Below are positions 48,221 through 53,564 of a stretch of 64,000 nucleotides of DNA, piece by piece. Each line of letters begins with the position of its first letter. The first letter of the stretch is position 1. The DNA is taken from positions 62,001 to 126,000 of the forward strand of contig JACREZ010000023.1 of NCBI GenBank assembly GCA_016212665.1, written 5' to 3'. The position numbers and the translations under genes were made by a program. The notes under the pieces are model-generated. The model worked only from the letters and a program-made list of their open reading frames with translations. It ran no database searches and was not told the origin of the DNA. The DNA is from Ignavibacteriota bacterium. GTDB lineage: Bacteria; Bacteroidota; Ignavibacteria; UBA10030; SZUA-254.

Positions 48221-49285
48221 ATGGAATTAACAATTATCAATAGAAAAGATACGAAGATTTCCGATGAAGACGACGCAGCATTACTTACGACGGGATTTTG
48301 TTTTGCGACTCATGTTCATTTCGCGGCAGTTGGCGCTACTTTCATATCGTTATACAGGGATTTTCCTACGTTACCTGAAAACCTTAAACGCGGTCTGATT
48401 AAAACAATCGTCCCTGGAAAGAATACTTCTATAACAGAGGAGAGAATTGATGAAGTCTATACCCGGTTGAAAGCGTTGAGGAAACAACGGGGAAAAATAA
48501 TTGAGGAAATAAAACTGATTCGAGCTTCTGAAAAATTTATTAAGTCAATGGAAGAGCATGTTCAACAAACGTTTGAGAACTTTCTTACACATTTTCATTT
48601 AATGAATATTGTGAAGTTTACTAATGATGACGAATCGAACATAATACAGACGTGGACCCTGAACGGATATAATCCTGATTCTGACCATCCGGATTATTAT
48701 CTTCATTGTGTTGCCACTACATTGTATCACCTGGAAGAACTACCATTCTTTCCCTCAGTAATGGAAACGGTAGCATGTAAATTTACGGCGAGTAATCAGG
48801 ATGGACTCCCTTTGCAACATCAGGATGAGATAGTTTTCCTCAGCGAGCCATTATTTTTTCTTCCGCTTGTAGGAAAACTGGAAGAATCCCAGATACTTAT
48901 CTTCCGAAACGATTTCTTCGCGGAAATGATAACGTGGCATGATCTTGTATTAGCAAAAGCTAAGGAGCTTTCTACGGTTGAATTTACATCTGAACAAATT
49001 CCTTATCTCAACAAGACACTTCACCAGTTTCAGCAGGTATGTGAATCAATACAGACGCTCATCGATGCTCATCCTTTTATCCATTTATTAAAGAGTAAGG
49101 AAGGAGAGGTCAAACAATATTGTGTGCATCTCGGAATTACTTCGTTCAGAAATCTCCTTTCAATATATCGGTTGCTGGGTATTATCAATGAACAGGAAAC
49201 GCTCTACATTCTGGAAGAAACAGAACAGCACGTAAACTTGCAGAATTGCGGCTTGTTTCTGTATCTTCAATCGTACGAATCATAA
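48221..49285 (+). CDS. Unknown protein paired with an NYN ribonuclease
   Basis: A 354-residue soluble protein that I do not recognise. Helical content dominates. There is a probable coiled coil at residues 75-125 (ITEERIDEVYTRLKALRKQR), a region with several His/Cys residues (TGFCFATHVHFAAVG; YYLHCVATTLYHLEELPFF), and a helical C-terminus (IPYLNKTLHQFQQVCESIQT). There is no signal peptide and no membrane segment, so it is cytoplasmic. The next gene, a Regnase-like NYN ribonuclease with helical repeats, starts 14 bases after its stop, so the two are almost certainly co-transcribed. Partner, regulator or antitoxin of the nuclease is the natural hypothesis. Confidence 0.7.
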   Translation: MELTIINRKDTKISDEDDAALLTTGFCFATHVHFAAVGATFISLYRDFPTLPENLKRGLIKTIVPGKNTSITEERIDEVYTRLKALRKQRGKIIEEIKLIRASEKFIKSMEEHVQQTFENFLTHFHLMNIVKFTNDDESNIIQTWTLNGYNPDSDHPDYYLHCVATTLYHLEELPFFPSVMETVACKFTASNQDGLPLQHQDEIVFLSEPLFFLPLVGKLEESQILIFRNDFFAEMITWHDLVLAKAKELSTVEFTSEQIPYLNKTLHQFQQVCESIQTLIDAHPFIHLLKSKEGEVKQYCVHLGITSFRNLLSIYRLLGIINEQETLYILEETEQHVNLQNCGLFLYLQSYES

Positions 49286-49299
49286 CATGAAAGGCGCGT

Positions 49300-50718
49300 A
49301 TGGCATCAAAAATAAAGTTCGAATATATCGAGACTAAAGAGTATCTCGATTTCCCGGTTATCGTGGTGAGCGATATTTTCGGTTTCACCCGGTTTGCCGA
49401 ATTTCATAATGTGAAGTTCATTTTCCGTGTACATGAAAATGAGTATCCTTCTTTTGTCTTCCCTCATGACGGAGCGATGTATAAAATTGACGGGCAGGGT
49501 TACCGCGAGGTTGAAGATTACTGTGAAAGTATGAAAAACGGTTTTCCCAACGCGGCGCTATTTTACGAAGCAAAGAAAAGCGGTTGTGAATCATTTACAG
49601 AGTTCGAGGAACTGAAGAAAACCGGGGTGGAAAGCAAGGAGGATTTTCTTCAGGCGCAGAAGGGTGGTTTTGTAAAAGGGTTCGATGAATTCAAGAAGAA
49701 GTTTGAACAGTACAAGAGCAATAAAAATACAGCAATCATTCCCGATAGTATTGATAATGCAACGAAACTGATGAAATACGCGATGAGCAAAGGATTGAAA
49801 ACGTATCAGGAATTTGCAAAAGTGTACGATGCCGGTTACCCGGATGTGATGATGTTTACCGAGGCGAACACCAAGGGATTTGCTCACTCGCATGATTTTT
49901 ATTCCGCTCTGAAAGCAGGCTTTTCCGAGGTGAAAGAATATGAGGATGCGAAGCGACTCGCCATTGCAACAAAAAAAGAATATGAAGATTTCCGCAAATT
50001 GAAGAATGCCAATATCGGACAATACGCGATGGATGTTTTTCAAGTAATTGAATTGCTCAAAGCGCAGGAAAACGGGAGCCGGCTCAGTCTCGCGCAGATA
50101 CGTGAACTTCTTAGTAACGAGCAGGAAAAATATAAACGCGCATTCATCGGCAACGATATGAAAGTACTTCCGCTCTGGTATTCGCGGCAGTTGGAAACAC
50201 AGGAACAGTTGCAAAATTTTTTTCTGAATCACGCGGAAGCGAAGAAGAATGGTTTCTATGACAAAGAGACGGAGATGTTTGAAATCTTCCGGCTTTCCAA
50301 AAGCAAGGTGTATATTGACGGAAGTAATGTGGCAATGCATGGCAAAGAGGAAAAGAGCGAATCGGCGCGTGCAGAAAATCTCCGAAAAGTTATTGATGCT
50401 TTGAAGGGGCGCGGCTTCAAGGATATAACAATCATCGCCGATGCTTCGCTTCGTTATCGCTTTCACGATAAGGAGATATTGGAAAGCGTAAAACAGTCTG
50501 TGAATTATTATGAAGTTCCCTCGCATACTTCTGCAGACGATTTTCTTATCGAACATGCGCGATTAGATAAGTGTTTTATCATTTCTAACGATACGTTTAC
50601 CGATTGGAAAGTGAAAGATAAATGGATTGCCTTGAATATTGACCACATCCGAATCCCGTTTTTGATAACGGAAGGACGCGTCACGTTTACCGGATTGGAA
50701 AACGGAAACGGCGGTTAG
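49300..50718 (+). CDS. NYN/Zc3h12a-like ribonuclease with 14-residue helical repeats
   Basis: A 472-residue cytoplasmic protein with an AAGG site 8 bases upstream. Residues 335-465 form a Regnase-1-type NYN (PIN-like) RNase domain: VYIDGSNVAMHGKEE with Asp340 and Asn343, ITIIADASLRYRF with Asp381, HTSADDFLIEH with Asp413/414, and CFIISNDTFTDWK with Asp431. All expected acidic positions are present. Residues 74-129 and 158-241 contain about ten tandem 14-residue units with the consensus F-x-x-A-x-K-x-G-F-x-x-x-x-E (for example FYEAKKSGCESFTE, FTEANTKGFAHSHD, FYSALKAGFSEVKE). One more related unit lies at about 309-322. The first 70 residues are a separate beta-rich part. The repeats suggest a helical-hairpin scaffold that selects an RNA or a protein. 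I know of no described system with this fusion. Confidence 0.85.
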   Translation: MASKIKFEYIETKEYLDFPVIVVSDIFGFTRFAEFHNVKFIFRVHENEYPSFVFPHDGAMYKIDGQGYREVEDYCESMKNGFPNAALFYEAKKSGCESFTEFEELKKTGVESKEDFLQAQKGGFVKGFDEFKKKFEQYKSNKNTAIIPDSIDNATKLMKYAMSKGLKTYQEFAKVYDAGYPDVMMFTEANTKGFAHSHDFYSALKAGFSEVKEYEDAKRLAIATKKEYEDFRKLKNANIGQYAMDVFQVIELLKAQENGSRLSLAQIRELLSNEQEKYKRAFIGNDMKVLPLWYSRQLETQEQLQNFFLNHAEAKKNGFYDKETEMFEIFRLSKSKVYIDGSNVAMHGKEEKSESARAENLRKVIDALKGRGFKDITIIADASLRYRFHDKEILESVKQSVNYYEVPSHTSADDFLIEHARLDKCFIISNDTFTDWKVKDKWIALNIDHIRIPFLITEGRVTFTGLENGNGG

Positions 50719-52980: not shown

Positions 52981-53325
52981 TCAGAAATTTAACAACGCAC
53001 TGATTTTATTTAACGTCTCTCGAAAAAGATGGTTTGGCAGTTTACAAATAAACTCGGCTTCTCTCGACTTCCAATCAAGACTTTTGATTTGGTCGGATAA
53101 AATAACACCGCTGATTTCCAAATCATCAGAAAGCCGCACCTCAAACGGATAACCTTTTTCCTGACTTGTTATTGGACAAAAGATTGCCAAGTCAGTTTTG
53201 TTGTTGTAGATCAAGGGTGAAATTACTAAAGCAGGTCTTCTCCCGGTTTGTTCATGTCCCGATTGTGGATTGAATGTCAGCCAAACGATGTCGCCTGCAT
53301 CGGGAACATATCGTTTTGGTTTCAC
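52981..53325 (-). CDS. mazF: MazF/PemK-type toxin endoribonuclease
   Basis: A 114-residue protein of normal MazF length. Conserved segments are DAGDIVWLTFNPQSGHEQTGRRPALVISP and NNKTDLAIFCPITSQEKGYPF, then ISGVILSDQIKSLDWKSR. The arginine and threonine of the MazF active site (R in GRRPALV, T in CPITS) are present. MazF cleaves mRNA at short sequence motifs. Its start overlaps the mazE stop by four bases, as is usual for this toxin-antitoxin operon. Confidence 0.93.
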   Translation of the reverse strand: MKPKRYVPDAGDIVWLTFNPQSGHEQTGRRPALVISPLIYNNKTDLAIFCPITSQEKGYPFEVRLSDDLEISGVILSDQIKSLDWKSREAEFICKLPNHLFRETLNKISALLNF

Positions 53326-53564
53326 CAGAGTTCCACCCCAACCCTATTCCCCGAATCAAATTCCCTGTGAAGGTTGGATTTCTTTATTCCTGAAATCAAT
53401 TCATCCAAAGTAAATTTCTTCTCCTCAATCGGCTCGACGGTAATTTTATTATCTTCCAATGTAAGATTAACAAACTCATCCTGTCTGATTCTTGATTGGA
53501 AAGCAAATGCTTTGGGGATTCTTAACGCTAAACTATTTCCCCACTTTTGAATTTTGATACGCAT
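53322..53564 (-). CDS. mazE: MazE-type antitoxin
   Basis: An 80-residue SpoVT-AbrB-fold DNA-binding protein (KIQKWGNSLALRIPKAFA; VNLTLEDNKITVEPIEEKKF). The C-terminal 30 residues should be the flexible MazF-binding tail. It is first in the operon and probably autoregulates it together with MazF. Confidence 0.93.
   Translation of the reverse strand: MRIKIQKWGNSLALRIPKAFAFQSRIRQDEFVNLTLEDNKITVEPIEEKKFTLDELISGIKKSNLHREFDSGNRVGVELW

Follow-up and report, generated by a model that had tools for sequence, protein, structure and literature searches.

A bacterial Regnase-like ribonuclease on a 14-residue repeat solenoid and its proposed family of interchangeable partner proteins

A ribonuclease of the Regnase type that is fused to a short repeat, and preceded in a bacterium by a gene of an unnamed family, raises the question of what the two encoded proteins do together. 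The locus lies in a 64,000-nucleotide stretch of DNA (the window) and consists of two open reading frames (ORFs), gene 1 and gene 2, whose coordinates and common strand, with a spacing of 14 bases, bear out the two-gene unit proposed in the initial annotation. Our preferred reading, to which we give a probability of about 0.4, is that a single RNase works with many interchangeable partners, in which the C-terminal half would serve for docking and the N-terminal half for target reading, with RNA cleavage as the presumed outcome. The features of the locus are as follows.

48221–49285, plus strand: gene 1, partner protein of an unnamed family, 354 aa (ORF; 27 members without a consistent Pfam match; AF2 model with pLDDT 87.3)
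48221–48820, plus strand: gene 1 residues 1–200, diversified half (conservation below that of residues 201–350; paralogue pairs)
48821–49270, plus strand: gene 1 residues 201–350, conserved half, putative common docking part (conservation; paralogue pairs; recombination skew)
49300–50718, plus strand: gene 2, NYN ribonuclease with a repeat solenoid, 472 aa (ORF; PF11977; orthologues; AF2 model; fold match)
49300–49491, plus strand: gene 2 residues 1–64, β-rich N-terminal domain (AF2 strands; found in all eight orthologues)
49498–49707, plus strand: gene 2 residues 67–136, repeat block 1 of five 14-residue units (periodicity; roughly one modelled helix for each unit)
49708–49791, plus strand: gene 2 residues 137–164, spacer of 28 residues, equal to two unit lengths, with the register kept (periodicity; unit alignment)
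49792–50001, plus strand: gene 2 residues 165–234, repeat block 2 of five 14-residue units (periodicity; unit alignment; model)
50014–50295, plus strand: gene 2 residues 239–332, winged-helix-like middle domain (secondary-structure order in the model only)
50296–50697, plus strand: gene 2 residues 333–466, NYN/Zc3h12a ribonuclease domain (PF11977; fold match to MCPIP1 3v34_A)

The nuclease, its repeat scaffold, and the protein encoded upstream

The nuclease domain of gene 2 is a member of the Zc3h12a class, as judged from its profile, its fold, and its metal-binding acids. Residues 334–446 match PF11977 (RNase_Zc3h12a) with 56.1 bits (cut-off, 23), a match found in all eight gene-2 orthologues, in which D340, D381, D413, and D431 are invariant and D435 is Asp in seven and Glu in one; C425 is the sole invariant cysteine. 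The fold resembles those of MCPIP1 (3v34_A; Z-score, 16.4; rmsd, 2.2; 135 aligned) and PRORP2 (5diz_A; Z-score, 14.7; rmsd, 2.5; 138 aligned). The initial annotation had described a complete NYN/Zc3h12a-like RNase domain with its acidic residues and a Regnase-like RNase fused to a repeat scaffold; the former is confirmed by the PF11977 score and the conserved acids, and the latter is supported by the same profile together with the 14-residue series described below. No CCCH zinc finger was matched in gene 2 at E-values up to 10. The AF2 model of the whole protein (pLDDT, 79.6; pTM, 0.49, a value at which the domain orientation is unreliable) consists, in order, of a β domain, eleven helices spaced by ~14 residues, winged-helix-like elements, and the NYN domain. 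Strands of the N-terminal domain are placed at residues 8–12, 20–22, 40–44, 51–56, and 59–64, and the middle domain is composed of helices at 244–255, 264–278, and 301–310 and strands at 261–263, 318–321, and 326–329, with low model confidence at residues ~280–287.

The repeat is detected by BLOSUM autocorrelation over residues 61–235, which peaks at a lag of 14 (6.5 SD over shuffles) and again at 28 (5.2 SD). Ten units are arranged in two blocks of five, starting at residues 67, 81, 95, 109, and 123, and at 165, 179, 193, 207, and 221; single units are degenerate in the window's gene 2, with four exceeding the shuffled maxima on the unit profile. From 80 units of eight orthologues, all of which retain the solenoid, the consensus G-[FY]-x-[DSTN]-x-x-[ED]-[YF]-x-x-A-x-K-x is obtained, with Gly at position 1 in 58/80, Phe at position 2 in 50/80, Glu or Asp at position 7 in 59/80, Tyr or Phe at position 8 in 71/80, and Ala at position 11 in 51/80. 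The ten units, two blocks, and period of 14 given in the initial annotation thus stand, whereas its exact motif (F-x-x-A-x-K-x-G-F-x-x-x-x-E) is found only twice, and its view of the repeat as new-looking has to be given up, since two rhizobial plasmid proteins also carry it. Outside the orthologues of gene 2, matches to the repeat profile are only rhizobial, with scores of ~40 bits for the plasmid proteins P0001 and P0002 and of 29 bits for a short ORF from Rhizobium. Nine consecutive units are present in secreted-looking, peptidoglycan-binding-like plasmid proteins of Agrobacterium and Mesorhizobium (L003, 4323–7226; L004, 4323–7205), the former of which adjoins a His-Xaa-Ser (hxs) system.

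The order of solenoid followed by NYN domain, and the additional fold match to PRORP2, could also be explained by a cellular RNA-processing or turnover enzyme with a PRORP-like plan, to which the partner family would be loosely linked or regulatory, and the strong conservation of gene 2 and its position near housekeeping genes fit this explanation. The PRORP profile, however, gives 18 bits on gene 2, under its cut-off of 39.1. PPR repeats are ~35 residues long, whereas the period of gene 2 is 14, with about one helix per unit. In addition, gene 2 is missing from nearly all relatives and is thus not essential, and we consider a role of this kind quite unlikely.

For gene 1, the AF2 model is confident (pLDDT, 87.3; pTM, 0.85), and the 27 members in the alignment and profile, taken from among the gene-1 copies, give no consistent match in Pfam. 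Nor does the fold have a confident match among solved (PDB) or viral structures (best Foldseek E-values, 0.49 and 0.41; VIA Z-scores, <5), by which a new fold is not proven. Several fold-search hits pointing to bacterial glucosyltransferase toxins were at chance level (best E-value, 0.49; probability, 0.06) and were rejected, and neither the VIA-align hits (Z < 5) nor the viral hits (best E-value, 0.41) were taken as relatives. The family of the first gene, for which the initial annotation could offer no name, accordingly has neither a Pfam nor a PDB match. The profiles of gene 1 and gene 2 show no similarity to each other, the PHROGs search yielded nothing significant, and nothing convincing for gene 1 was found in plasmids, phages, and viral contigs, two plasmid hits at E-values of 1–2 being disregarded. 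Composition says little on origin, because gene 1 is low for the window (GC, 0.384; GC3, 0.372) and gene 2 is ordinary (GC, 0.424; GC3, 0.48). About 2.3 kb downstream, an ordinary MazF/MazE-type toxin–antitoxin pair (PF02452, PF04014) is encoded on the minus strand (window positions 52981–53564), for which no link to the pair was seen.

Distribution, co-occurrence, and gene order

Both genes are rare among the relatives of the host. Of the 100 genomes nearest to the host's, the other 99 gave no hit to PF11977, used for gene 2, or to the gene-1 protein. In the class, 1 of 391 genomes has gene 2, and in the phylum gene 1 was found in 1 of 242 sampled genomes, that of the window itself. PF11977 is present in 2 of 395 phylum genomes, and a protein search with gene 2 matched 2 of 296, the second in the NYN domain only. 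Because of this absence from nearly all relatives sampled, the pair was probably acquired, or kept by very few genomes. Among the best 80 of 159 loci from an alignment-based scan of 84,980 species genomes, seven near full-length orthologues of gene 2 (35–38% identity; six covering residues 1–467 and one 4–455) were identified, all in uncultured organisms, three with Bacteroidota-type names (Bacteroidetes, Rikenella, and Marinifilum) and four named ‘uncultured bacterium’. The remaining loci of these 80 cover the NYN domain or little more, except for a weak archaeal match to residues 60–438; this Thermoplasmata stretch (L039; tblastn; 22% identity) was rejected as an orthologue, having no match to the repeat profile and lying in a genome without gene 1. 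Single-protein searches of genome contigs, viral contigs, phages, and plasmids gave no full-length relative of gene 2. Other NYN proteins were met along the way. NYN/Zc3h12a-type matches are common in Rhodobacteraceae loci among the same best 80 (many of L021–L093), short stand-alone forms of ~195–206 aa are exemplified by L005 (3836–4423) and L010 (2821–3441), and a further bacterial layout, in which a long charged, probably coiled-coil region precedes the NYN domain, is found in the window's phylum (G081; L002, 652–1896) and on Pseudomonas plasmids (L006, 3164–4420).

Where gene 2 is present, gene 1 is present as well. Gene 2 is single-copy in all eight genomes carrying the full-length version (the window's and the seven others), and gene 1, searched with a profile from the upstream ORFs, occurs in each of them and is absent from the archaeal NYN-only genome. 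Among 149 genomes from the order to which G696 belongs, the 27-member profile found gene 1 in four, and full-length gene 2 is present in the identical four; a fifth genome (G772) has the NYN domain only, without full-length gene 2. Rare co-occurrence of the two genes had been named at the outset as what would tell against the pair, and the coincidence in these four genomes favours it. The corresponding Fisher probability of 5e-8 ignores kinship and the drawing of the sample, and overstates independence because the gene-1 profile was built from the scored genomes, which are related metagenome-assembled genomes (MAGs); for the same reason of relatedness, the eight genomes do not amount to eight independent events. 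In the set around G692, gene 1 is likewise found in 5 of 149 genomes, every one of them with gene 2.

The two genes adjoin each other in three of the six evaluable genomes, namely those of the window (14 bp), G694 (two copies), and G695 (7-nt overlap), and gene 2 is without an adjacent gene 1 in G690, G691, and G696; adjacency is not evaluable in G692 and G693, because their contigs begin 391 and 188 bases before gene 2. Two tandem ORFs upstream of gene 2 in L018, and the one upstream in L019, share homology with gene 1 at an identity of only 17–22%. Re-scanning of the fetched contigs, with fragments counted, gave 47 gene-1 ORFs in the eight genomes: 1 in the window's genome, 3 in G690, 1 in G691, 13 in G692, 12 in G693, 2 in G694, 1 in G695 (cut at the contig end), and 14 in G696, including pieces of 94 aa (G692, at a contig end) and 120 aa (G693) and excluding a 123-aa fragment with a stop in G696. 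Copies occur singly or as tandem groups of two to four, and around them lie varied genes that, as judged by eye, look like ordinary metabolic or housekeeping genes, and the solitary copies have no flanks in common.

These counts bear on the suggestion that gene 1 silences the RNase and frees it under stress or infection, as in an inhibitor or antitoxin-like pair. RNases are common toxins, and an RNase gene that follows its partner at 14 bp, or overlaps it, is arranged as in many regulated nuclease pairs. However, one RNase faces up to 13–14 partner ORFs that are mostly distant from it, three genomes have gene 2 without gene 1 beside it, the partners are ~350 residues long with a variable half, and gene 2 is strongly conserved, unlike a mobile toxin (dN/dS, 0.022). 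Simple inhibition of the RNase by gene 1, along the lines proposed in the initial annotation, is unsupported in that form, given the many dispersed partner copies per RNase in several genomes, and we regard an inhibitor pair as rather unlikely. Interchangeable partners fit better than a lone inhibitor, because there are many dispersed copies per RNase with a conserved and a variable half.

A second kind of repeat was seen at the DNA level in the related genomes, as tandem arrays, for the most part between genes, in which a unit of 21 bp (or 42 bp) recurs, often about ten times. The unit sequence is specific to each array, and several arrays have hairpin potential. Examples are as follows.

L169: 10352–10585, 12108–12261, and 7328–7406
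L172: 11157–11375, 15080–15309, and 18502–18723
L180: 50–267

In arbitrary stretches from seven gene-2 relatives, 25 such arrays were counted in 285 kb, against 8 in 624 kb of 41 genomes taken as lacking gene 2, a comparison set that included extra stretches of three array-positive genomes and G772 (NYN gene only); other tandem arrays are equal per base between the two sets (8 and 17). A direct link of the arrays to the gene pair was nevertheless dropped, because their density does not rise near gene 1 or gene 2 (26 in 323 kb), G691 has none, and the window's genome has few (4 in 191 kb).

A conserved and a diversified half in the partner proteins

Residues 1–200 of gene 1 are less conserved than residues 201–350. 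When ORFs of at least 290 aa were compared, the C-terminal part was more similar than the N-terminal part in all 182 within-genome paralogue pairs and in 566 of 638 between-genome pairs. The gene-1 tree, built from 45 of the 47 ORFs (those of at least 190 aa), mixes genomes with lineage-specific groups (19 label changes versus a shuffled mean of 25.7); the placement of the window's copy and those of G690 and G695 is unsure, because long branches meet there. For five close pairs from G692 and G693, dN/dS of gene 1 is 0.07–0.29, as compared with 0.022 for gene 2 (at dS 0.257), so that selection maintains both genes, with much the tighter constraint on gene 2.

The gene-1 family recombines and turns over. 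Five of the six reciprocal pairs were subjected to a codon-skew test, with the pair at 50% identity excluded, and in three of them a nearly change-free N-terminal part stands beside a diverged C-terminal part (p = 4e-6, 2e-11, and 4e-6); in the strongest case, differing codons number 0 of 193 in the N-terminal part and 31 of 159 in the C-terminal part (p = 2e-11). Of the other two pairs, one has no skew (p = 0.24) and one is reversed, with changes in excess in the N-terminal part (p = 0.006). Furthermore, at one locus in two sister genomes (L159, 4485–5537; L142, 6399–7454), the flank is 93–98% identical and the gene-1 proteins are 39% identical, a difference that represents replacement of the gene-1 allele.

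Such replacement, together with the diversification and recombination of the partners and the sporadic distribution of the pair, might be expected of an anti-phage defence in which one executioner RNase is served by many diversified sensors. Yet neither protein matches any PADLOC family at E-values up to 10, homology to the two genes in the phage and plasmid collections is limited to the NYN domain or the repeat, and the neighbouring genes are not recognisable by eye as defence genes, which makes a defence function unlikely. The same features could be turned around, with the gene-1 copies forming a selfish or rapidly duplicating family whose transcripts are silenced or processed by gene 2; the copies are indeed dispersed, arranged in tandem, turning over, and always accompanied by gene 2. 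On the other hand, gene 1 is under purifying selection, solitary copies share no flanks, and gene 1 adjoins gene 2 in three genomes, and this explanation appears highly improbable to us.

Returning to the interchangeable partners, we propose that gene 2 is a predicted metal-dependent Zc3h12a/NYN endoribonuclease mounted on an α-solenoid of 14-residue repeats and a winged-helix-like domain. In the gene-1 proteins, docking to the RNase, or else to a shared component, may be the task of the conserved C-terminal half, and the diversified N-terminal half may recognise a particular target or signal. The window's genome would then represent the simplest form, a putative operon with a single partner for the RNase; in the relatives one RNase would serve up to ~14 dispersed partners, a set that changes by duplication, recombination, and turnover. 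Against this reading stand the three of six evaluable genomes without gene 1 beside gene 2 and the codon skew, which does not always fall in the C-terminal part; the conserved half could instead be a structural core without a docking face. The fuller picture of a one-nuclease, many-partner network, in which a mosaic family plugs its common half into the NYN RNase and has the other half diversified for different targets, is doubtful at present. If it is true, exchange of the variable half in a partner protein would let a bacterium retarget its one RNase, a form of modular specificity, and two unnamed items, the single-helix repeat of 14 residues and the family of gene 1, would gain a home in which their function can be tested. 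On the more modest reading, the locus encodes a bacterial Regnase relative, rare in occurrence, and the partner linked to it.

Comparison with known systems

The nuclease domain is alike to those of Regnase-1/MCPIP1, ZC3H12B/C, and KHNYN (PF11977) by sequence (56.1 bits), fold (Z-score, ~16), and metal-binding acids. Gene 2 differs from the Regnase/ZC3H12 proteins in having no CCCH zinc finger, in carrying the 14-residue solenoid in front of the nuclease, and in its bacterial two-gene setting. The closest known plan is that of PRORP, including human mitochondrial RNase P, in which an α-solenoid is followed by an NYN nuclease as in gene 2; according to PMC10602865, the human mitochondrial enzyme also has non-nuclease subunits. 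Gene 2 is not a member of PRORP, from which it differs in the length and sequence of the repeat, the sub-threshold score, the absence of a conserved cysteine set for a zinc domain, and the lack of a known link to tRNA.

The Agrobacterium and Mesorhizobium plasmid proteins WP_174073217.1 and WP_199202647.1 share the 14-residue repeat of gene 2, in nine consecutive units, but have a signal-peptide-like N-terminus (by eye), a weak match to PG_binding_1, and no nuclease. Titles and abstract openings on PF11977, NYN proteins in prokaryotes and in anti-phage settings, 14-residue repeats, the PRORP architecture, and gene conversion in expanded families, in a collection that lies outside bioinformatics preprints and most subscription papers, contain no match for the pair, in agreement with the initial annotation, which knew of no description of it; within the same coverage, this weakly suggests that a plan of interchangeable partners for one RNase has no described counterpart.

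Toxin–antitoxin modules with NYN or PIN nucleases are likewise small gene pairs with the nuclease second. Here, in contrast, the partner protein is large and each nuclease has many dispersed partners: only 3/6 evaluable genomes have the two genes side by side, and most copies of gene 1 lie elsewhere, unlike the gene pairing of such modules. In its logic, the proposed network would be comparable to helper–sensor immune networks, although built from a new protein family.
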